Shown here one piece after another: positions 45,153-58,590 of a stretch of DNA of 64,000 nt. This DNA comes from Sulfurovum sp. (lineage in GTDB: Bacteria; Campylobacterota; Campylobacteria; Campylobacterales; Sulfurovaceae). The notes below the pieces were generated by a model. It saw only the letters and a program-made list of their open reading frames with translations, did not search any database and was not told the origin of the DNA. The stretch spans positions 62,001 through 126,000 of the forward strand of contig JAMOTK010000022.1 of the NCBI GenBank assembly GCA_027062365.1. The letters run 5' to 3'. The translations under genes were made by a program, and so were the position numbers. The first letter of the stretch is position 1. Each line of letters begins with the position of its first letter.

Positions 45153-46793
45153 ATGGGGATAGATAAAGAGGCAATAGAGAAGTATATATTTGACCCTGAG
45201 AATCCGAAGGTGTGTGTATCTTATAACTTACTTTTGAATATAGCTAGAAAAGAACCAAATAACTTTTTTTCTCCTGAATTTTTACTATATTTTTTTGCTG
45301 ACCAAATTATTACTAATGAGTTTGATAATGAAATTTGGGATAAGCCTGATAATTATAATTTATTAACTTCTGTAGAAAAAATAGAGCTTTTTAGAAAAAT
45401 AAATTCTACTTCTGATTTAGAAGAATTCGTTAAAGATATAGATTTTAAAGTAGATAAAATATTGAATTTAAGTTTTATAAATGAATTTAATACTTTAGGT
45501 CATGCGAGTACAAAAAATGTACATACAAATATTTTTCAGCTAGATAAAGAGTATTCCTTTTATATTTATGAACCGTATAGAAATAATATATTATTCTCAA
45601 AAAATTATTTTAAAATTTTAAATGAAAACTTTCAAAAATCATCTATTTTTATAACACTAGAGAAAAATATAGCTAAATTTTTTTCTTATCAAGATAATCA
45701 ACATATTAGACCACTTTTCCTAAAAAAAATAGAAGATGTAGATTTACTTCTCAATGTATTAGAAAATGACTTAAAAAAAGAAAAGCAAAAAGCTCTCCCA
45801 AAAGAAAATATAAAAACCTTAACGAATATAAGTATAAAAAAGTTTTTCTCAATAACTGAAATAAGCCTAGACAACCTAAAAGACAAAAAAGAAATTTATA
45901 TCGTAGGAGAGAATGGAGATGGTAAAACGCTTTTACTTCAAGCTATCGCTGTTGGATTAAAAGGAACAGAAGAAGATGGACTTAAAGAATTTAGAGTGCG
46001 AGAAGATGACTTTAGTATTAAAATAGAAGATAAAAAAGATATTCAAAATAATTTCTTTGCCTATGGTTCATCACGAAATAACGCTTGTCAAATGAAAGAA
46101 GATACTACGGGATATTTAAGTCTGTTTAGTGGAGAATATGATTTGAAATCTCCTATGAAATGGTTGCAATATCTTGATTATAGTGAGCAAAAAGAAAATG
46201 ATAATATTATCAGTGTCAAAGAGGCAAAAGCCCTTTTAAATCATCTTTTAAATTCTGATATTGAGATAAAAATAAATCCTAATGAAGTTATATTTAGCGA
46301 AAAAGGTTCAGAGGTTAGTTTTGAGCAACTTTCGGCTGGATATAAAGGTGTGATAACCATTATTTGTGATTTGATAGCAAGACTTTCAGAGAAACAAAAA
46401 GTAGAAAATATCAGTGATTTTCAAGCTGTGGTTTTGATTGATGAAATAGAACTACACTTGCACCCAAAATGGCAATATAGTTTTATGAATAAACTTAGAG
46501 ATACTTTTCCACTCATTCAATTTATTGTGACTACCCATAGTCCTAGTGTTCTTTTGGGGGCTGGTATGGAAGCTGTGTATTATCAAATTTATAAAGATGA
46601 TGATGGTGTGGTGAATATTTCTAAACAAAAAGAAGTGAAAAATAATTTTTTAAATGATATTCAAAATGATATTTTTGGTTTTGATGTGAATGAAGCGAGG
46701 ATACATTATCCTACGCAAGATGATAAGAATAGACAAAAAAGAGCAAAAGAAAGTCTTTTAAACTTTATTGATACTTTAGATGAGGAAAAATAG
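45153..46793 (+). CDS. AAA ATPase with unknown N-terminal domain (cassette 3)
   Basis: 546 aa. About 230 N-terminal residues show no known motif; then the ATPase core: IYIVGENGDGKTLLLQAIAV with Walker A at 252-259, FFAYGSSRNN, SFEQLSAGYKGVITII (signature), VLIDEIELHLHPKWQ (Walker B) and FIVTTHSPSVLLG (histidine loop). It ends one base into the PIN gene. Ribosome site AGGAAGAAGGGG. An ATPase directly coupled to a PIN nuclease suggests a sensor-effector pair; I know no named defence system with exactly this make-up. Confidence 0.83.
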   Translation: MGIDKEAIEKYIFDPENPKVCVSYNLLLNIARKEPNNFFSPEFLLYFFADQIITNEFDNEIWDKPDNYNLLTSVEKIELFRKINSTSDLEEFVKDIDFKVDKILNLSFINEFNTLGHASTKNVHTNIFQLDKEYSFYIYEPYRNNILFSKNYFKILNENFQKSSIFITLEKNIAKFFSYQDNQHIRPLFLKKIEDVDLLLNVLENDLKKEKQKALPKENIKTLTNISIKKFFSITEISLDNLKDKKEIYIVGENGDGKTLLLQAIAVGLKGTEEDGLKEFRVREDDFSIKIEDKKDIQNNFFAYGSSRNNACQMKEDTTGYLSLFSGEYDLKSPMKWLQYLDYSEQKENDNIISVKEAKALLNHLLNSDIEIKINPNEVIFSEKGSEVSFEQLSAGYKGVITIICDLIARLSEKQKVENISDFQAVVLIDEIELHLHPKWQYSFMNKLRDTFPLIQFIVTTHSPSVLLGAGMEAVYYQIYKDDDGVVNISKQKEVKNNFLNDIQNDIFGFDVNEARIHYPTQDDKNRQKRAKESLLNFIDTLDEEK

Positions 46794-47203
46794 TGAAATA
46801 TTTTTTTGATACAAATATTATTATAGACTTATGTCAAAATAAGGAAGAGACTAAAAAACAATTTATACAGATAGCACAAGAAAAAGAAAGTGAGATTTTT
46901 GTCAATAGATTAGTAGTGATTGAAGCGTTAAGAACTATTCATTTTGATTATAAAAAGCGATTTAGAGATGCTGTAGAGCTTTTAGATGCTTTTGAATCTG
47001 TAAATATTAAACAAGAAATTTATGATGAGGCTATTGATTTTTCAAGATATTGCCATAGTAACGGTGTAAGGCTCAAAGGTAAATGTGAAGCGATAGATTT
47101 TTTGCATTTTATGACAGCTAAATATTATCATCTAATAATGATTTCAAATGATAAAGATTTGGATAAATTAGAACAAGAGTATGAAGCCTTTAAAAATCAA
47201 TAA
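46793..47203 (+). CDS. PIN-domain ribonuclease-like protein, effector of cassette 3
   Basis: 136 aa, GTG start sharing a base with the ATPase TAG stop. PIN acid residues are in place: D6 in KYFFDTNIIIDL, E44 in VVIEALRT, D102 in CEAIDFLHFMTA and D120/D122 in ISNDKDL. PIN proteins are metal-dependent RNases and common VapC toxins. No small VapB-like antitoxin gene is present; the ATPase may take that role. Confidence 0.9.
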   Translation: MKYFFDTNIIIDLCQNKEETKKQFIQIAQEKESEIFVNRLVVIEALRTIHFDYKKRFRDAVELLDAFESVNIKQEIYDEAIDFSRYCHSNGVRLKGKCEAIDFLHFMTAKYYHLIMISNDKDLDKLEQEYEAFKNQ

Positions 47204-49034: not shown

Positions 49035-49571
49035 TTAATAGAGTCCAAATTTCCCATCGGCTCTTTTGTACATGACTCTCATGATACCCTCATGGTCATT
49101 AAATACAATAAATTGACGTTTTGTTTCAGACTTGAGTGCATCTATTGCTTCATCAAAGTCAATAGGCTTATGAAGTTCTAAGTCCATGGGTACTATTTCT
49201 AACTCTTCATTGGTAGTATATTCACTCACGGCTTCGGCTTCTACCCCTAAGTCTTTGAAGCTCATGATACGATGACCTTTAATTTTATCTGCATGTCTTC
49301 TGAGTGATTTTTTGACTCTTTCTATTGCCAAATCAATAGTGGCATAGACATCTTTGTCATTTTGTGTGATAACGATAGTATTTTTATCTTTTAAATTGAT
49401 AATAAATTCTGTAGTAAACCCTTTTCTACCATGTTTTTCATTGGCAGATATGACAGTATTTGCTGAGATAATATCTAAATTATATTTTTTGAGACCTTCC
49501 ACGGCTGCATCTGCATAGGCTTTTATCGTTTCTGTGAGTTCAAAATGTCTACCTGTGATACTTTTGTTCAT
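49035..49571 (-). CDS. hpf: Ribosome hibernation-promoting factor, long form
   Basis: 178 aa. I start at 49571 because AAAAAGGA lies just upstream and the product begins MNKSITGRHFELTETIKAYA. The N-terminal S30AE domain (to about 100) binds the 30S decoding centre. The C-terminal domain (RQFIVFNDHEGIMRVMYKR, then DGKFGLY) dimerises ribosomes into 100S particles. Upstream, two ATACTTAAT direct repeats (49625-49633, 49645-49653), 20 bases apart, might be regulatory. Convergent with recG. Confidence 0.93.
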   Translation of the reverse strand: MNKSITGRHFELTETIKAYADAAVEGLKKYNLDIISANTVISANEKHGRKGFTTEFIINLKDKNTIVITQNDKDVYATIDLAIERVKKSLRRHADKIKGHRIMSFKDLGVEAEAVSEYTTNEELEIVPMDLELHKPIDFDEAIDALKSETKRQFIVFNDHEGIMRVMYKRADGKFGLY

Positions 49572-49675: not shown

Positions 49676-50368
49676 TTATGAATCATCTTGCCCAACAATT
49701 TGAGCATAACCTGTTTCTGGTTCAATCGTAATAGTAAATGTTTCATCATCTGAAAGTGTAAAGGTAAAGCTACAAGGTTGTGTGATAAAACTATTATAAT
49801 TGGGTTGCGTAGATAACCCAAAGCCATAATGAGGTCTTCCAAAGTTATCAAATCCTATATGCCCCATAGTAGTGGCACTTGTACCTGCACAACCTCCCTG
49901 AGCTAGGATAGTTTTGATACCATATTTTTTACTTATAAACACTTCTTCACTGGTTGACCCATCTCCTCCATTAGGACAAGCTTGACCACTTGTCCAAAAA
50001 AATGGTTTGCTTGTACTTGGGTCTATCGCTGATTCATTACGATCAAAAAATGCATTGTTTGAACTCTCCATATCATCATCAGCACCTATCATAAAGTAAC
50101 GATTGTCTCCTGTACAGGTACTAAAAACAATTCTCCAAAATCTTTGTTGCCATTTGGCTTTATCAAACTTATGTTTATTATCGGTTAGGGCTAGATGTTG
50201 GGTATAGCGTATGTGAGAGAGCATACTATCAGAGGCTTCTTGTTTGTAGTCTCTGTCCATACGAGGTATAGCAAGAGAAGAGAGAATCCCTAAAATGACG
50301 ATAACCATGATAAGTTCTAGCATGGTAAAAGCAGGTTTTAGTAGGTGTATAAAATTTTTATTTTTCAT
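49676..50368 (-). CDS. Type IV pilin-like (pseudopilin) protein
   Basis: 230 aa. Prepilin signal KPA then FTMLELIMVIVILGILSS with the conserved E5, so cut by PilD and N-methylated. The rest is a beta-type domain with several Cys (TSGQACPNGG; TQPCSFTF). Last of four pilin-like genes behind the giant surface protein. Comparable to a MshC/GspH-type minor pilin. Confidence 0.87.
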   Translation of the reverse strand: MKNKNFIHLLKPAFTMLELIMVIVILGILSSLAIPRMDRDYKQEASDSMLSHIRYTQHLALTDNKHKFDKAKWQQRFWRIVFSTCTGDNRYFMIGADDDMESSNNAFFDRNESAIDPSTSKPFFWTSGQACPNGGDGSTSEEVFISKKYGIKTILAQGGCAGTSATTMGHIGFDNFGRPHYGFGLSTQPNYNSFITQPCSFTFTLSDDETFTITIEPETGYAQIVGQDDS

Positions 50369-50370
50369 GA

Positions 50371-50856
50371 TTATATCTTTTGTACGGTGCGTCTATGATA
50401 GACTAAATTGGGTGCATTTGGATTGTCTAAATCTTTATAATCCACATAAGCATCTACGATGATAGTAAGAGGGGTACTGCTACCAAAAGGGACAACACCT
50501 AACCTTCTTATATTTGCACAGTTGGCTATACCAGAGGCATCATTAATCCCAATATAGGAGATATGTGTACGAATACGATATCCATCATTGGGATTGACCG
50601 TTGTGGCATTTCCAATAAGACCATAGATTGTCTCTACACAGTCTATGTTTCGATCATTTCCTGTGACTGCCAATACGCTATACTCTGTATAACTATTGGC
50701 CAAAAGCATGGCTTGTTCTCTTTGGTATTGTGCTGTGGTTTCTTTGATGAGTTTACCTGATAGTCCCATGACAAACATCGCCACGGTAGACATCAATACA
50801 ATCATGACAATGGCCGTTATCATCGAAAAACCTTTTCTATAGTGTATATGTTTCAT
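50371..50856 (-). CDS. Minor pilin-like protein without E5 (MshP/PilX-like)
   Basis: 161 aa. The signal RKG then FSMITAIVMIVLMSTVAMFV has T in place of E at position 5, as in tip-type minor pilins (PilX, MshP, GspK). The globular part holds CVETIYG and CANIRRLG cysteines. Overlaps its upstream neighbour by one base and is two bases from the next gene. Probably part of the pilus tip. Confidence 0.82.
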   Translation of the reverse strand: MKHIHYRKGFSMITAIVMIVLMSTVAMFVMGLSGKLIKETTAQYQREQAMLLANSYTEYSVLAVTGNDRNIDCVETIYGLIGNATTVNPNDGYRIRTHISYIGINDASGIANCANIRRLGVVPFGSSTPLTIIVDAYVDYKDLDNPNAPNLVYHRRTVQKI

Positions 50857-51686
50857 TAGAATATCGCCTTTTCTTTACATGAGGGAATACTAAATCCATC
50901 CCCGATATTTTCTTTTACACAAAGCTTGATACGCGTAGTAGAACCTCTATTTTCAAATTTGAAATTAGTAACATTTTTAAGTAAAAGATAACGGATTCCA
51001 ACGATATTGGCCCCTATGGTAGGTGCAAAATCAGAGTACAAAAATAAATCTCCACCCTCCACTAATAAGGCATAAGAAGTCCATGCTAGTTTGTATCTCT
51101 CCACGATACGATTACTAGGATTAGCAGCTAAAGTAATACTCGTTCCTGTGGCTGCTTGAATAGCAAAGGCAGTTGGCTCATTAGGGAAAAATAAACTAGC
51201 AGTGGTAATATCTCTTGTACCATTTGAGAGATTGTCTATAATAGTATTTGCTAAGTCAAGATTAGACCCTGGTGTAGAAAGAGCAGTGGCTGAACTGTTA
51301 TCTACATCACAAAAACCACTCCATCCAGGCTGTCGGCTAGTATCGCTACTTATGGCTTCAAAGCTATCAATATCTGTACCTACCCATTGGAGGACGGTAT
51401 AAGCATTGGAGGCTGAACCCATAGCAGAGGTAGTCAATTCAAATCCTCCTAGCCTTCCTACACGTCTTCCTATACTTCCTGGTATGGTATGACGGAGTCT
51501 ATTGGCTATTTGATTGAGTGCCAGTTGTGTTTTGATAGAGGCTCGGTGTTGTGCACGTTGTACGATATAGTTTTCATATACATTTGCAATCACTTCAGAG
51601 CCTATTGAGGTGATGATACCTAATATCGTGATAACAAAGACAACTTCTATCATCGAAAATGCTTTTCTCTGTCGTGTTATTTGCAT
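50856..51686 (-). CDS. Pilin-like protein (MshO/GspJ-like)
   Basis: 276 aa. Signal RKA then FSMIEVVFVITILGIITS with E5. NQIANRLRHTIPGSIGRR after the helix and a long beta region with late cysteines resemble MshO/GspJ-type proteins. One base separates it from its upstream gene. Confidence 0.83.
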   Translation of the reverse strand: MQITRQRKAFSMIEVVFVITILGIITSIGSEVIANVYENYIVQRAQHRASIKTQLALNQIANRLRHTIPGSIGRRVGRLGGFELTTSAMGSASNAYTVLQWVGTDIDSFEAISSDTSRQPGWSGFCDVDNSSATALSTPGSNLDLANTIIDNLSNGTRDITTASLFFPNEPTAFAIQAATGTSITLAANPSNRIVERYKLAWTSYALLVEGGDLFLYSDFAPTIGANIVGIRYLLLKNVTNFKFENRGSTTRIKLCVKENIGDGFSIPSCKEKAIF

Positions 51687-51687
51687 T

Positions 51688-52437
51688 TTAAAAATTCCTC
51701 TCTTCTAAATTATATGTACCGATATTGCAAGAAAAAGCACGTAAAACAATTGTTTTTTCAAGTACTGCAGCGTTGGGGACATCTGTGCTAGTAAGGGTAA
51801 CGACTATTTCTTTGATATTTGAACTATCTGTAGCTACAACCATAGGAGTAAAGGCAGTATGTGTAATGATACGTCGTCCGTAGTCATTGGTGGTTGCATC
51901 TGAGATATACCTGACAGCTGTATTGATGTTGATAGTGCTTTTCTCTATATAGTCTGTCGTGGTTGATGCACCTATTTGGGTGAGGTTAATATCTCCGATG
52001 AAGTCATCTATATCATCGCCATCTGATTCTACTGTTTCCCCTGTATCAAAACCTAAGTTAATAGGCTCTGAGGCAAAGAGATTACTACTGTTTGCATCGG
52101 CAAAGATAAAGGTTCTTTGGCTTTGTTCGGGTGTGCCTTTTCTCCTAGAAGTAAGTGCTACCATAGCCAAGTCTGCATGACCTCCTGTGGTATGTAAGAT
52201 AGGTGTATAGGTGCTGTTTGTATTGTTTTCATCCCAGGCATAGCCCATAATCATATTGATTCTTGAAGAGGCTTCATTGATACCCTCTTGCTGCATGGCT
52301 GTAGTGCTACTTTTGGATGCTGTACTGATGAGCATAGGTGCTGACATCATAACAATCGCCATGATGACTAGAGCAAAGATAAGCTCTATCATGGCAACGG
52401 CAGGACGTAGAATACGTTGCGTGTATAGGGTTACCAT
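51688..52437 (-). CDS. Pilin-like protein (MshD/GspI-like)
   Basis: 249 aa. The signal reads RPA then VAMIELIFALVIMAIVMMSA with E5. The globular domain has no recognised motif (MIMGYAWDENNTNSTY). It overlaps the end of the giant gene by seven bases, so expression is coupled to it. Probably a minor pilin of the same apparatus. Confidence 0.82.
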   Translation of the reverse strand: MVTLYTQRILRPAVAMIELIFALVIMAIVMMSAPMLISTASKSSTTAMQQEGINEASSRINMIMGYAWDENNTNSTYTPILHTTGGHADLAMVALTSRRKGTPEQSQRTFIFADANSSNLFASEPINLGFDTGETVESDGDDIDDFIGDINLTQIGASTTTDYIEKSTININTAVRYISDATTNDYGRRIITHTAFTPMVVATDSSNIKEIVVTLTSTDVPNAAVLEKTIVLRAFSCNIGTYNLEERNF

Positions 52438-55400
52438 TCTAAACGTTTCCCTTTCTTAGTATTTGAATTGCCTCCGACTACATGTCCTGTATCTCCAAAC
52501 CCTGCCCAAGTAGCACTGTTGATAAATCGTACCCTATAAAAAGGGTCGCTTGGATTGAAGATGAGCCATCTATCGGTAAAGTTTGCTTTGGTAGTATCTG
52601 TTACTAAGTTGATATCTACGGTCGTAGGTAAGGTTAACCCTACGTTACTTATGACTATTGAGTTATTTTCACCTTTTGTAGATATAGTGACAGGGGTAGG
52701 AGATAGTATCCCTGTTAAGGCACTTTCTATGACTATCTTCCCATCATCCTCTGTAATATTGTCATGGTTCCATGATTTCCACCAGTTAAAATCACTTGTT
52801 TGTCCATTGAGTGTATCAAGACCTCTAAGTTGACACTCTGTAAAGCCTAAATCACAATAGATAAGAACAGAGATAGGTGTCACTACCGTAGTATCTGTGA
52901 TGTCATCATAAAAGAGTTTCGCAGGTTGGACACTTGCATAGAAAAATGATATATTTCTATCTATTAATAGGGTAGAAAATGCTGTATGGTCATCTATCAA
53001 ATTCACACTCAAATCTATCGTTGGCATAGAGATATTGAGGTCATGAAAGGTGATACGTCTAGGGTTGAGTGCTTTTGTATTGTCACGGTCAAAGTTAAAT
53101 CCTAAGTCCATGGTGATACTTCCTTGCATATCTTTAGCAAAATGTCCTGTATTTTGTGTAATAGTAAATTCATTTTTTATATCTCTTAGTAGGCTACCTG
53201 TCACTGTATTTTGTTCTTTGGTACGTGTGATGATACTCTCATCAGTGCTATTGTAATCTATAAGGTCATAGGTAAGATTAGAGGTATCACTTGGTATATC
53301 TGATAGATAGGTATAGTGTAGATTCATTGCTGTATCTATGGCATAACATCCACCTACAAAGTTAGAAACCCTTATTGCATCAAATCCTTGTGCTGTAAAG
53401 CTACCTTGGATATTGAAAGAGATATTTTCATCTACTCCATTGGTATACTTAGCATCATCTAGGGTATTGATATAGACAAAACCTTTGTCTCCACTAGGAT
53501 GTGTACTGGTATTGAAAGAGAGAGCAAACTGATAAGGATAAAACTGTAAAGAGAGCGAATTATAGGTATGTCCAAGGTTTGGATTGGTATGGTTTGCACT
53601 ACTAATAAGACATCCATTTTGACTTGATGCAGATGGAATAGAGTTTTCATCATAGAATATTACACTATTGTCATCTAGAGCACAATCTGGGGTTGCGTTA
53701 AAGCCATCACCATTATGATGTGCTGTATATGCGATATTCCAATCTGCTTCTGTCCAGTTGTGATCGCGTAGTTCAAATTGGTAGAGACCTACTTGTGAGA
53801 CTTTATCTAATGTGGCATTGCTATCTGTATCTCCAGGTACAGGTACATTGGTACCTTGCCATAGGGAGATAGAAATGTTTTGATCAGAAACTTCATTACA
53901 TTCAACAAGTGTCTTGCTAGAATCTGCCCATACGAGTGTCGCTGAGGCTGTACTGCTATCTGATTCTTGGTCATTAAATGTCTGTTGGTATCCCGTGACT
54001 CCAATTTCACTGATATAGTCTGTGGCATTGACATCAAATCTGTATTTGTATCCTGCTACAAGTGTGGTAGGGCTACCTGTGGCTAATCGCGAATCTGTGA
54101 GAGTATTTATATCTTCTGAGACTTCTGATTGGTTGCTATCTATAAGTGCTACGACAAAAGACTCTGGACGGATAGAGAAGTTGTCTCGTGAACAAACAGG
54201 GGTACCATAGTAGTGACGGATACATGCATAACATCCTGTTTGGCTTGAACTACACTGGGCATTACAATAGTTATCATCGGCATAATTGACACTATATAGG
54301 GTATCAAAACATGCTTCTGGGTCTGCGGCTTCTGTACTACAGTTGTACTCAACAAAGCTTCCATCAGGAGCTGTAAGGTACCAAATCCTAAATGCTGTGG
54401 TACGGATGGCTTGATCATATAGAAAGCCTTCTAATGCTACAGAGTCTTCATCTCTAAATTGCACAAACTGAGGGGCTGTAATATTAGAATCAGGGTTATT
54501 GCAACTGATATTGGTATCTCCTGAGAATAAATCGGCATTAATAAGCTCTATCTCTACATCAGTACTTACTTTATTTGGTGTGAGATAATCTATATCATAA
54601 CTAAAGACTCTCAAATCAAACGGACGATTGACTACTTGTGTATAGATGTTATACGGTGTTCCAAAGTGACTTGATGTATTGTCTGTTTCTGCAAAATCAC
54701 CAGCGATATTGAAGATATTGTAGGCAGGGAAATATCCACCATTGGTTTCACATAAACTATTACCATTAAATTGTTTACTAAGGTTAAGTGGTCCTGAACC
54801 ATAATCAACGGTGTATTCAATCCATAAATCAAAGAATGTATTGACTGTTAGTCGTTGTAAATCACCTTGAAATTTGATATAACGTGTCTCAAATGACCCA
54901 ATAGTCCCTCCAGGACCAGGTACAGGATTGGCTCCTGTTCCAATATACATACCAAAACCATTAGGGGCTTGATTGTATGTTTGGTTGAGTCCTGTGGTTC
55001 CTGCGGGGATATAGTTACTGATACCATTAGGTGCTAGGGCTGTACTATCGGTGATATAGCGTAGATGGCTTGTGTCTGCTATTTGGTAACTGATATTTAC
55101 ATCTTGAAGAGGGAAATCTCCTTCTTGTGATTGTACAGAGATACGTGTAGTGAGTGGGTCGGTGAGTCTTCTTCCAAAATCGACCTTGATTTCATTACCA
55201 GTAGAACGCAGTACGTATCCTGCAACATCTAGGGTATAGTTATAACATATCTTTGGTTGGTAAAGTTCTGTTGAGAATGCCAACATACTAGGGGTAATAT
55301 AATCTTGATTGGAGTAGTATTTGATATATATATTTTGTATCAATGGATCGTTGTCTCTATAGCCTTCGATAATGGTAGATACATTAAAGTCATCGACATC

Positions 55401-58256
55401 AACTCCATTGTTGTTGGTTTGTAAGTTATTGCTCTGTCCTGGGACTTCATCTCTAAGGATACCATCCATCACTGCATCAAAGACATTGTCTGCGTTGGAA
55501 CTACCTGGCATATCTACATACCCACTGTTGCGTTGATTGCTTATCTTGATAGTATCAGGAGAATAAAGGGCTTCACCTTCTCCTGAAAAGAGTGAAAATT
55601 GGGATTTGACAGCACCTTCTTCTGGTAGTCTAAATCCTGAGATTTGAATAGGGTCATTGGCTGAGCCTTTTTCTATGACATCAAATCCACTGTATATAGA
55701 TATATTTCTAGGAGAGCCATTGAGAGGGTCTTCTAGGTAAATGATGGCCAAAGACCACCCTCCAAATAGACCTGGATTGCCTTCTCTCCCCTCTGAAGTA
55801 CCTAAGTTTGCTACGGTAAAGGTGTGTTTCCCTATGCCTAGATTGGCAGTTTGTAAAAGCTCTGTCACATCAGCAAAAGCAGCATAGGTACGCCCTCTAT
55901 AATCTCCACTGTTGTAGATAGTTTGTGCGGCTATATCAGCGTAAGACCCTGTATTTATTTTGAGTTTGATAAGATTGGCTTGTGTGCTTTCTATATCTAT
56001 ATTAGGACGACTAGAGCCATTTGATGTCTCTATCAGTGAATAGGTACTTCCATTTTCTTTGGCATAATGTATTGGATATCTTGTAGAATTCTTTTTCCCA
56101 TTACTAAACCGTCCTTGCCAAAAGAGTCCTGCCCAAGCGATACCTTTGCCTCCACGTTGATAGTAACTGTTTGGAAGCTCTATATAGGATGAGCTAGAGT
56201 TCCATGTCCTTGTGTCATTATCAATATCAATATATTTATTGACATGCATATTACTTGTGATACCTGCATAATCATTTTGTCCATGACAGGTTCCACCATA
56301 GCCTGTGGTCTTTTCGGTGAGACAAGTGACGGTATTTCCTGCTATTTTGTAGCCTCCGACAATATTTCTAGTCCTAGGAGGATTGATAAGCTCAAAAGGG
56401 TGAACCCCTGATTGATAATCTGTACCGATGGCTATGGTTACTGTGGCAGTACTTGTTGCACCAGAATTATCTGTAATGGTGTACTCAAAAGTTACCGTAG
56501 TTGCAGGACTTGCTATGGGGGTATAACTAAAGTTACCAGCGGCATCTATGGTGAGAGTCCCCTCAGAGGGTTGGGTATTTGATGTAACGATGATGCCATA
56601 TCCTGTATCTGGTCCTGAACCTGTATCATCTAAGATGACATTACCATGTAGTACATTTCCTGGGGTCATATCATAGACATTGGGTGTGGCTAAGATGGGT
56701 TGTAGAATGACATGAATGATAAAGTCATCAGAAGCCGAATCTCCAGGGCTATCTGTGACGGTTGCATGCACTGTAAAATTACCCAATTGCGTGGTCACTC
56801 CTGTGATAACACTGGTTATAGGATTGATACTTAGCCCTGGAGGTAATCCTGTGGCACTGTATCTTAACGGATCTCCATCTATATCATTTGCATAGTTACT
56901 AATAGGTGGTGTCATGTTAAATGTTGTACCTATTGGGGTAGTGACATCGGGGATACCCACAAGTGTAGGTGCGATATTTCCTGTAGCTTCCATACAGATA
57001 GTAGAAGAGCGATAATTGGTCCAATAATATTCATAAGAGTATACTCTGTTACAAATATGACCTCTTTTTAAGACCTTAGCATCGATGGTCACTATAAATG
57101 AATCATCATGGGTATAGACACCATTAGAATAACAAAAAATATAAGGATTTCCATGATCTGTGCGATGTTCACAGGTCACATCTGCAGGTTTAGTAAGAGA
57201 GACAAATTCAAAAGCTCCTCTTGTGGTACCCCACTCAGTCCCAGTTGTTCCTAATGGAAATTTATCACGCATTGCAATTTTTTTATCAAATCCTCTATTG
57301 GCAACACGAATAGTAAAGGTAACGATATCATCCACTGCTGGGGTAGCATTGTTTACTGTTTTGTAGATATCCACAGTATTACGACCTCCAGGGACACCTA
57401 CATAGATAGTTCTTGTATATCTGTTATTTGAACTCTTAGGGTCAGCTATATTATTAGGAGAGCTGATATATGCTGTATTTTTAATGACAACACCATCTTG
57501 TGTAGTTCTTGCTTTTATAGTGATCTTGACTCTTTGATTTTTTGTAAATTTTTTAGAACCTGTACAGGTGATGGTTCTGCTACTTTCAGAACAGCTAAAA
57601 GAGGAAAAATCATCAGTCACACTGACAAAACTAAGTCCAGCAGGGAGTGCATCTACGACTTTTATCTTGGATTTATAAGGACCACGGTTTTTGGCATATA
57701 TCGTATAGGTGACAATATCTCCAATACTATAAGAAGTTCTATTGGAATATTTTTTGACTTCAAGGTCTGCCCGTTCATCTGTATCATCATTTTTAATATA
57801 AATAGTGGCTTGATAGTTTTGAAAGCTAAATGATTGATCTCTATGGGTACTTCTATTTAGTAATTTGAGATAAAATCTCTCTTTCCTTTCAAATTTGGTA
57901 TCTCCAATTATCTTTAGAGAAACGGTGTGACTTTGGGTACAATTACCTACACTAAAAGTGATGTAGCCTGATTTAGCAATATAATCACTGTCTGATGTCT
58001 TTGCCGAACTATTGGCTGTATAATACTTTATCTTTATATCTTTGGTATCAGGACATTCATTGATTGAGATAGTAATATTGACTGTTTTTGTCCCTGAGTT
58101 ACCCTCTGTGACTTCCACAGAAGCAGGCACCATAGATATGATAGGAGAATTACTACCTGTTTCTCCTGCTAAAGAGTATTGGGGTAGAAGAAAAAACAGT
58201 AGTAAAGAAAAGATAAAAAAATAGTTTTTACCTATAAGAGATTTAAAATTATTCAT
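52431..58256 (-). CDS. 1941-aa exported DUF11/Calx-beta surface protein (MshQ-like position)
   Basis: I start at 58256, eight bases after AAAGG; the longer frame from 58307 lacks a ribosome site. Signal peptide to about residue 31 (LLPQYSLAG). Domains by eye: Calx-beta (about 38-135), two DUF11 repeats (about 145-405; each with SIGDIVTYT- or AVDDIVTFT-like cores), a cadherin/dystroglycan-like Ig fold (about 410-500; IDGDPLRYSATGLPPGLSI), a tandem Ig (about 505-590), and a long Cys-containing C-terminal half with FSIRPESFVVAL, like MshQ. No membrane anchor or sortase motif. Four pilin genes follow, so it is probably a pilus tip adhesin. The leader contains a riboswitch. Confidence 0.85.
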   Translation of the reverse strand: MNNFKSLIGKNYFFIFSLLLFFLLPQYSLAGETGSNSPIISMVPASVEVTEGNSGTKTVNITISINECPDTKDIKIKYYTANSSAKTSDSDYIAKSGYITFSVGNCTQSHTVSLKIIGDTKFERKERFYLKLLNRSTHRDQSFSFQNYQATIYIKNDDTDERADLEVKKYSNRTSYSIGDIVTYTIYAKNRGPYKSKIKVVDALPAGLSFVSVTDDFSSFSCSESSRTITCTGSKKFTKNQRVKITIKARTTQDGVVIKNTAYISSPNNIADPKSSNNRYTRTIYVGVPGGRNTVDIYKTVNNATPAVDDIVTFTIRVANRGFDKKIAMRDKFPLGTTGTEWGTTRGAFEFVSLTKPADVTCEHRTDHGNPYIFCYSNGVYTHDDSFIVTIDAKVLKRGHICNRVYSYEYYWTNYRSSTICMEATGNIAPTLVGIPDVTTPIGTTFNMTPPISNYANDIDGDPLRYSATGLPPGLSINPITSVITGVTTQLGNFTVHATVTDSPGDSASDDFIIHVILQPILATPNVYDMTPGNVLHGNVILDDTGSGPDTGYGIIVTSNTQPSEGTLTIDAAGNFSYTPIASPATTVTFEYTITDNSGATSTATVTIAIGTDYQSGVHPFELINPPRTRNIVGGYKIAGNTVTCLTEKTTGYGGTCHGQNDYAGITSNMHVNKYIDIDNDTRTWNSSSSYIELPNSYYQRGGKGIAWAGLFWQGRFSNGKKNSTRYPIHYAKENGSTYSLIETSNGSSRPNIDIESTQANLIKLKINTGSYADIAAQTIYNSGDYRGRTYAAFADVTELLQTANLGIGKHTFTVANLGTSEGREGNPGLFGGWSLAIIYLEDPLNGSPRNISIYSGFDVIEKGSANDPIQISGFRLPEEGAVKSQFSLFSGEGEALYSPDTIKISNQRNSGYVDMPGSSNADNVFDAVMDGILRDEVPGQSNNLQTNNNGVDVDDFNVSTIIEGYRDNDPLIQNIYIKYYSNQDYITPSMLAFSTELYQPKICYNYTLDVAGYVLRSTGNEIKVDFGRRLTDPLTTRISVQSQEGDFPLQDVNISYQIADTSHLRYITDSTALAPNGISNYIPAGTTGLNQTYNQAPNGFGMYIGTGANPVPGPGGTIGSFETRYIKFQGDLQRLTVNTFFDLWIEYTVDYGSGPLNLSKQFNGNSLCETNGGYFPAYNIFNIAGDFAETDNTSSHFGTPYNIYTQVVNRPFDLRVFSYDIDYLTPNKVSTDVEIELINADLFSGDTNISCNNPDSNITAPQFVQFRDEDSVALEGFLYDQAIRTTAFRIWYLTAPDGSFVEYNCSTEAADPEACFDTLYSVNYADDNYCNAQCSSSQTGCYACIRHYYGTPVCSRDNFSIRPESFVVALIDSNQSEVSEDINTLTDSRLATGSPTTLVAGYKYRFDVNATDYISEIGVTGYQQTFNDQESDSSTASATLVWADSSKTLVECNEVSDQNISISLWQGTNVPVPGDTDSNATLDKVSQVGLYQFELRDHNWTEADWNIAYTAHHNGDGFNATPDCALDDNSVIFYDENSIPSASSQNGCLISSANHTNPNLGHTYNSLSLQFYPYQFALSFNTSTHPSGDKGFVYINTLDDAKYTNGVDENISFNIQGSFTAQGFDAIRVSNFVGGCYAIDTAMNLHYTYLSDIPSDTSNLTYDLIDYNSTDESIITRTKEQNTVTGSLLRDIKNEFTITQNTGHFAKDMQGSITMDLGFNFDRDNTKALNPRRITFHDLNISMPTIDLSVNLIDDHTAFSTLLIDRNISFFYASVQPAKLFYDDITDTTVVTPISVLIYCDLGFTECQLRGLDTLNGQTSDFNWWKSWNHDNITEDDGKIVIESALTGILSPTPVTISTKGENNSIVISNVGLTLPTTVDINLVTDTTKANFTDRWLIFNPSDPFYRVRFINSATWAGFGDTGHVVGGNSNTKKGKRLEW

Positions 58257-58270
58257 GATAACACCTTTAT

Positions 58271-58287
58271 ACTCAATCATATTGAGT
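58271..58287 (-). promoter_or_regulatory. Hairpin just ahead of the giant gene's ribosome site
   Basis: ACTCAAT / ATTGAGT with a three-base loop, ending four bases before AAAGG. It could be the part of the expression platform that hides or opens the ribosome site. Confidence 0.4.
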
Positions 58288-58340
58288 GAATTTAGTATGT
58301 ACATCAAAAAAGTGATGACATAAGCGTTATAAACTTACGT

Positions 58341-58410
58341 TTGGTAACCCGGCTGACTTTTGGTAAAGACCCGTGGCTTTCCGTCCTTGCTTTTCAACAA
58401 GTTTGGCTTT
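58341..58410 (-). promoter_or_regulatory. c-di-GMP-I (GEMM-I)-like riboswitch
   Basis: Read on the reverse strand: GCCAAAC, a six-pair stem CTTGTT-GAAA-AGCAAG closed by a GNRA loop, then GACGGAAAGCCACGGGTC, a short CTTT..AAAG hairpin, and AGCCGGGTTACC. Order, spacing and the sequences AAAGCCACGGG and AGCCGGGTTACC match GEMM-I. Against the usual GGCAAAC and GACGCAAAG there is an extra or substituted C in the first block and G for C in the second. It lies 85 bases before the giant gene and should set its expression by c-di-GMP or a related dinucleotide. Confidence 0.8.
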
Positions 58411-58412
58411 TC

Positions 58413-58418
58413 ATTATA
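58413..58418 (-). promoter_or_regulatory. -10 box of the riboswitch-led operon
   Basis: TATAAT on the reverse strand, placed so that transcription would begin at about 58406, at the first bases of the aptamer. No clear -35 box. This supports the aptamer being the 5' end of the mRNA. Confidence 0.6.
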
Positions 58419-58590
58419 TGTAATACTTGTCTAAAGAATAGCATAGCTAAGATAAAATCATTATTAAACGCTACACTATTGGGGTATCTTTCAATCTATA
58501 CTATGAAATTTGCTCTAATTTATAGGAAGCTAATAGAGCTTTTACATAGTTTGAGATATGATTAAGTATATTATAATGGATGAGGTAATT

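Follow-up and report, generated by a model that had tools for sequence, protein, structure and literature searches.

Cyclic dimeric guanosine monophosphate (c-di-GMP) is best known to control type IV pili either through the motor, MshE, or at the level of entire operons. In Clostridioides difficile, a c-di-GMP-II riboswitch stands before a type IV pilus operon. The riboswitch regulon of that bacterium has been described (PMC6200980), and in Vibrio cholerae c-di-GMP acts on the mannose-sensitive haemagglutinin (MSHA) pilus via a double 24-residue motif in MshE (PMC5013675). The V. cholerae genes form two clustered operons, mshI-F and mshB-Q (PMC4624765), and MshQ has been called a putative adhesin, the loss of which lowers surface MSHA (PMC7096442). 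Here, we describe a stretch of 64,000 nt (the window), part of contig C22 of the 2.3 Mb genome of a Sulfurovum sp., in which a predicted c-di-GMP-I riboswitch aptamer heads a reverse-strand gene unit encoding a giant exported protein and four pilin-like proteins. The named relatives of the window organism are Sulfurovum (Campylobacterota). We consider it probable that the ~170-nt leader of this five-gene mRNA contains a c-di-GMP riboswitch of class I, which controls the tip/priming set of an MSHA-type pilus, a type IV pilus. This set would comprise four minor pilins and a giant putative adhesin resembling MshQ; the assembly machine, the motors for retraction, and the candidates for the major pilin come from other loci without such a switch.

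As in C. difficile, the Sulfurovum arrangement places a (here predicted) c-di-GMP riboswitch on type IV pilus genes, but there it is of class II and lies over the major pilin and the machine, whereas here it is of class I and precedes the tip set only. Sulfurovum shares with the V. cholerae MSHA locus an MshL-type secretin, MshE, MshG, and MshM/N-like genes, and both appear to group minor pilins with a large MshQ-type protein. In Sulfurovum, however, the machine and the tip set occupy separate places in the genome, the tip set is ordered giant-c4-c5-c6-c7 behind the riboswitch, and the c-di-GMP motif of MshE, through which c-di-GMP acts in V. cholerae, is eroded. The components are already known; their combination, a riboswitch wired to a pilus-tip set, was not found described in the literature searched, where no description of Sulfurovum c-di-GMP riboswitches or of a riboswitch on msh tip genes was found.

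Aptamer and promoter

The aptamer (Table 1) matches RF03167 (c-di-GMP-I-GGC) with 63.2 bits against a gathering threshold of 59 (E 1.4e-12) and RF01051 with 69.9 bits against a cut-off of 35, and its score ranks among the best in the genus. By alignment, its pocket bases are G58407, A58380, and C58344, equivalent to G20, A47, and C92 in a numbering that we take to be that of the Vc2 structure, and this pocket is kept in 26 aptamers of the family. Judged by these bases, the window aptamer is a predicted c-di-GMP sensor. The main helices P2 and P3 are paired in 94-98% of cells of the aligned leaders, with double changes present; one P2-base pair was misplaced in the structure string used for the pairing test and scored 0. 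The window aptamer is thus like the c-di-GMP-I (GEMM-I) riboswitches of RF01051 and RF03167 in its P2/P3 core, its pocket, and its position in the 5' leader, but differs in apparently lacking a canonical closing helix P1 beside the core (two of the three P1 model pairs are non-standard in the RF03167 alignment), in having instead a putative displaced P1' that overlaps the hairpin PB, and in lacking the G47 of RF03167. The whole genome contains only two c-di-GMP-I aptamers, that of the window and one at C9:17649-17724, and therefore none at the pilus machine loci. The C9 aptamer (G000, minus strand; L037 8650-8725) has a good canonical P1, and the next long open reading frame (ORF), threonine synthase-like by eye, starts ~260 nt away.

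A TGnTAT/TGnTAA-type element occurs at the extended -10 place in all 18 aligned orthologous leaders, the set in which promoter, Shine-Dalgarno sequence, and folding were compared, and the element at 58443-58435 is accordingly a predicted conserved promoter with +1 near 58428. The initial annotation, which had been made from the sequence alone, proposed a dinucleotide riboswitch at the very 5' end of the transcript, and the covariance-model scores and pocket bases bear this out at the sequence level. Its transcript start at 58406 was wrong and would fall within the pocket that binds the ligand. The corresponding TATAAT at 58418-58413 was rejected as the promoter; it is not conserved, and transcription from it would start 6-8 nt downstream at about G58407, the G20 equivalent, so that the aptamer would be cut short. 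The annotation had named a promoter downstream of the aptamer as evidence against its proposal; none was seen there, and the conserved promoter lies upstream. With the promoter corrected in this way, a c-di-GMP-I aptamer heading the putative tip operon appears to be real, and the early reading appears right in outline, its function being predicted.

The putative tip operon

The giant gene and the four pilin-like genes form a minus-strand unit (49676-58256) in which neighbouring genes are spaced by -7 to +2 nt. ATG 58256 is the likely start of the giant because a Shine-Dalgarno sequence AAAGG precedes it, and the TTG at 58307 given in the ORF list is disfavoured. The prepilin motif TIGR02532 was above threshold on two of the four pilin-like genes (c5 and c7), while c6 had no family match in profile searches of the window proteins. 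A missing Glu5, as in c6, is typical of GspK-type tip pseudopilins. None of the five proteins matched an Msh family directly in these searches, and c4-c7 are likened to MshC, MshD, MshO, and MshP by order, size, and missing Glu5 only. DUF6701, which we take to be the MshQ family, scored above its cut-off of 27 on the module giants of relatives (47.7 bits in G206, 40.3 bits in G296, and others), to which the window giant is homologous in its C-terminal region.

The C-terminal 368 aa of the giant gave a confident all-beta model (predicted local distance difference test 88.8, predicted template modelling score 0.86), in which the conserved tail is disordered; as a guess, this tail, unfolded alone in the model, may dock on a partner. 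Naming the C-terminal domain by structure was abandoned, as no close PDB match was obtained (template modelling score at most ~0.35). The tip set may work like the PilY1/minor-pilin priming complex (PMC7541494), which likewise combines a large exported protein and several minor pilins encoded together, one of them without Glu5. PilY1 identity of the giant itself was rejected, for it has no PilC/PilY1 domain in Pfam and no fold match, its predicted C-terminal fold being all-beta.

The pilus machine and MshE

An MSHA-type machine was found at other loci of the genome, which was covered by means of searches and of chosen stretches. An MshL secretin (TIGR02519, 257.8 bits over a cut-off of 250.2; L111:14580-16196) is encoded on contig C33 together with MshE, an MshG-like protein, an MshM-like ATPase, and a TPR protein; the MshE-type ATPase carries PF00437 (T2SSE) and PF05157 (MshEN, 67.7 bits), and the MshG-type platform protein carries PF00482. 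Two PilT genes are located on C60 and C40, and C65 carries a distinct type II secretion system that has pseudopilins of its own. The genome has no contiguous mshI-Q locus, the machine being on C33, the tip set on C22, and other pilins on C31, C53, and C55. These searches, which the initial annotation had suggested, agree with its description of one reverse unit that comprises a giant exported protein and four minor-pilin-like genes and lacks genes for the motor and the major pilin; motor genes and candidate major pilins are present elsewhere in the genome. Its MSHA-like label is upheld by the MshL score above the curated cut-off and by the DUF6701 matches of the relatives' giants, and the separation of the tip set from the machine likewise holds.

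The double c-di-GMP motif of MshEN was not found in Sulfurovum. In all 29 Sulfurovum MshE sequences (29/29), the RLG triplets are KLI and (I/V)SF, and both Gln residues are Arg or Lys. Binding of c-di-GMP by Sulfurovum MshE has probably been lost, whether or not the module carries a riboswitch. A genome-by-genome link between the aptamer and the loss of the MshE motif was rejected, as MshE is eroded in all sampled members with or without the aptamer. Taken together with the predicted riboswitch, this suggests that c-di-GMP may reach the Sulfurovum MSHA-type pilus through the tip-set mRNA.

Distribution of the aptamer-headed module

RF01051 was detected in 53 of 299 genomes surveyed across the order and in 72 of 78 genus genomes, with up to 21 copies each. 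The aptamer lies directly before the same giant in seven family genomes, comprising six complete modules and one cut by a contig end. A total of 80 named module loci were collected via the first pilin, and a family aptamer model built from 26 aptamers was run on these 1.26 Mb of relatives. It gave 23 hits, all on the module strand and 22 of them upstream of the giant. The link between aptamer and module far exceeds chance. Where the start of the giant gene was readable (52 loci), the aptamer precedes it on the same strand in 21. In nearly all readable loci, the pilins come immediately after the giant, which has at its end a tail of the W.G.G.TG...RRLEW type; the module giants range from ~350 to 2850 aa, and their N-terminal parts differ between genomes.

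The nearest relative, L126 (contig G360 C38; MshE 89% identical), has no aptamer, PB, or PC in its leader, which reads TTTTATCTTAGCTATGTTATTCTGTAGTTAAGTATTACAAATTC, then a hairpin, then GAAGGTGTTATCATG, with promoter, pre-Shine-Dalgarno hairpin, and Shine-Dalgarno sequence as in the window. The aptamer and its platform, which lie between promoter and gene, therefore behave like a separable unit. The L126 giant reads as two ORFs, and this split may be a sequencing error. In L243, the aptamer is degenerate (30.3 bits). It is possible, and proposed here tentatively, that the c-di-GMP input has been rewired, the MshE site having been lost genus-wide while some members of the genus have, between the conserved promoter and the Shine-Dalgarno sequence, a patchily gained or lost RNA switch that would gate the tip/priming set alone, the giant adhesin of which varies fast.

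Several further features of the family aptamers were observed. In L128 (from 5037) and L156 (from 6313), P3 of the aptamer seemingly contains an insert, very roughly 200 nt long, that has inverted repeats at its ends (GATCTGAGTGGT...ACCACTCAGATC in L128) and is possibly a small mobile element inside the riboswitch. A recurrent riboswitch target in the family (L056, L105, L074, and others) is a very large exported protein with a ~220-aa protein encoded next to it on the downstream side (clusters 18 and 2), and further targets are chemoreceptor-like, PAS-like, and lipoprotein-like genes.

Leader structure and proposed mechanism

The leader structure was tested on 14 aligned leaders against 500 shuffles and slid controls. 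The proposed helices were 88.7% paired compared with 81.0% in shuffles, with 17 doubly changed pairs compared with 9.5 (reached by 0/500 shuffles) and a structure score of 0.362 compared with 0.219, above all 500, and pairing fell to 31-46% when the structure was slid. Part of this covariation signal is the aptamer itself; PB, directly 3' of the aptamer, is strongly paired on its own (Table 1). The arms of PD vary among relatives, yet the hairpin persists, including in the aptamer-less L126, with 70.9% of cells paired in an imperfect alignment. The canonical P1 appears to be absent, and a displaced P1' of the form UAYG/CRUA or UUAC/GUAA can be drawn across the leaders, which taken alone is suggestive. 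P1' uses the 5' strand of PB, and the two would therefore exclude each other.

In the proposed mechanism, transcription would start near 58428, and the aptamer would fold and bind c-di-GMP, which would stabilise the displaced P1'. Its 3' strand being the 5' strand of PB, bound and unbound RNA could not share one leader fold, and the read-out would fall on translation of the giant gene and, via the overlapping genes, of the pilins. No terminator-like site or U-run terminator was found in the leader, and the read-out is therefore probably translational control of the giant gene.

Table 1. Features of the riboswitch-headed unit and its downstream neighbour (window positions).
Feature	Position	Strand	Remarks
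Predicted promoter, extended -10 TGC-TATTCT, predicted +1 ~58428	58435..58443	-	Counterpart in 18/18 leaders; retained in aptamer-less L126
5' arm of putative displaced P1' (UUAC), partner GUAA 58335-58338	58420..58423	-	Complementarity; covariation weak across family
Predicted c-di-GMP-I riboswitch aptamer	58339..58416	-	RF03167 63.2 bits; RF01051 69.9 bits; own model R1 82 bits
Hairpin PB (CGUAAG ... CUUAUG), mutually exclusive with P1'	58319..58339	-	94.9% paired, two doubly changed pairs, 14 leaders
Hairpin PC (CAUC ... GAUG)	58302..58317	-	94.3% of cells paired
Hairpin PD (ACUCAAU AUG AUUGAGU), just 5' of Shine-Dalgarno	58271..58287	-	Folded in window leader
Shine-Dalgarno AAAGG	58264..58268	-	AAAGG in nearly all aligned leaders
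Giant exported protein, ~1941 aa, ATG 58256; Calx-beta, DUF11 x2, He_PIG, Big_9, conserved C-terminal domain	52431..58256	-	MshQ/DUF6701-like via relatives
Pilin-like c4, MshD-like position, Glu5 kept	51688..52437	-	Found in 57/78 genus genomes
Pilin-like c5, MshO-like position	50856..51686	-	TIGR02532 21.6 bits
Pilin-like c6, MshP/GspK-like position, FSMIT, without Glu5	50371..50856	-	No family match
Pilin-like c7, GspH/MshC-like	49676..50368	-	TIGR02532 26 bits; GspG/GspH sub-threshold
hpf/yfiA ribosome hibernation factor	49035..49571	-	Downstream neighbour in 5/6 complete module loci

Alternative explanations

Some of our observations weigh against riboswitch control of an MSHA-type tip set. 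The window giant has no DUF6701 match of its own and joins the family via homology to relatives; P1' alone is 83.8% paired compared with 79.0% in shuffles, a value reached by 42/500 and not significant; exposure of the Shine-Dalgarno sequence in the window leader is equal in the free and P1'-forced folds (0.53 and 0.52); and 31 of the 52 module loci, including the nearest relative, are without the aptamer, so that riboswitch control is dispensable. The giant and the four pilins might serve the type II secretion system on C65 or another type IV filament. Such a system exists in the genome and the five window proteins have no direct Msh family match, but it has its own pseudopilin genes beside it, the MshL/MshE locus is without a tip set of its own, the genome has two PilT genes, and the relatives' giants are DUF6701 proteins, which together make this assignment unlikely. 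It is also quite improbable that the aptamer binds another ligand, either 3',3'-cyclic GMP-AMP (cGAMP) or the one recognised by the c-di-GMP-I-GGC variant class. It is known that riboswitch specificity can shift with changes in the pocket (PMC9481103), and Rfam reports RF03167 as the clan winner, but the RF01051 bit score is higher, and the RF03167 consensus ACGCGAA has G at position 47 where the window (ACGGAAA) has A. The variant name should therefore not be transferred, and A47 disfavours the GGC class as G20 disfavours cGAMP specificity; the G20-to-A change of cGAMP sensors was seen in 0/26 aligned family members. The genome also encodes seven GGDEF domains, and c-di-GMP is therefore likely made. 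A decaying remnant without a present role would be in line with the loss and decay seen in L126 and L243, but the window copy scores among the best of the genus and keeps every pocket base, with PB, PC, and promoter conserved, and we regard decay as very improbable.

Under the preferred reading, a c-di-GMP riboswitch controlling the tip set, the sign of the switch may be considered in two ways. Equilibrium folding was rejected as a guide, as it gave no consistent ON/OFF direction across the 18 leaders, and a common anti-Shine-Dalgarno element was rejected as it holds in one clade only. An ON switch, by which c-di-GMP would promote production of the adhesive tip as expected of a sessility signal, is a possible reading: c-di-GMP generally favours attachment and promotes MSHA pili in V. 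cholerae (PMC7096442, PMC4624765), but no terminator or anti-Shine-Dalgarno element that binding could disrupt was found in the window leader. A translational OFF switch, in which the bound aptamer would break PB and free AUAACGCU to pair with AGGUGUUAU at the Shine-Dalgarno sequence in a three-way junction with PC and PD, is possible too, though slightly less likely. The AUAACGCU/AGGUGUUAU helix is present in predicted folds of G000, G130, G206, L133, and L131 and is compatible with P1' and incompatible with PB, but L171, L135, and L136 lack the complementarity, and folding gives no difference in Shine-Dalgarno exposure in the window. The earlier proposal that the cell changes what its pilus sticks to as c-di-GMP rises goes past this evidence. 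As a separate observation, in L147 (4628-4720) the aptamer is followed at once by the Shine-Dalgarno sequence AAAGGAG, which could itself form the 3' strand of P1 (CUUUU/AAAGG), in which case that relative would be an OFF switch.

Other loci in the window

At 45153-47203 (plus strand), the window contains a two-gene unit, the first gene of which encodes a PtuA-related AAA ATPase (Septu; PADLOC, 147.8 bits) and the second a PIN-domain protein, and a further similar AAA-PIN pair is located at L113:5226-6852 (C60). It is possible that the AAA-PIN pair is a defence or toxin-antitoxin pair.

Implications

If the c-di-GMP input has been rewired as tentatively proposed, the cell would use it to decide whether pili are built and which tip they carry, and not whether the motor runs. 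A riboswitch gating the tip/priming set alone would split the building of the machine from the choice of what is presented. The aptamer-less L126 and the decaying copy in L243 offer natural comparisons for what the switch adds, and the many c-di-GMP-I aptamers carried by genus genomes would make Sulfurovum well suited to the study of how c-di-GMP controls surface proteins through RNA.

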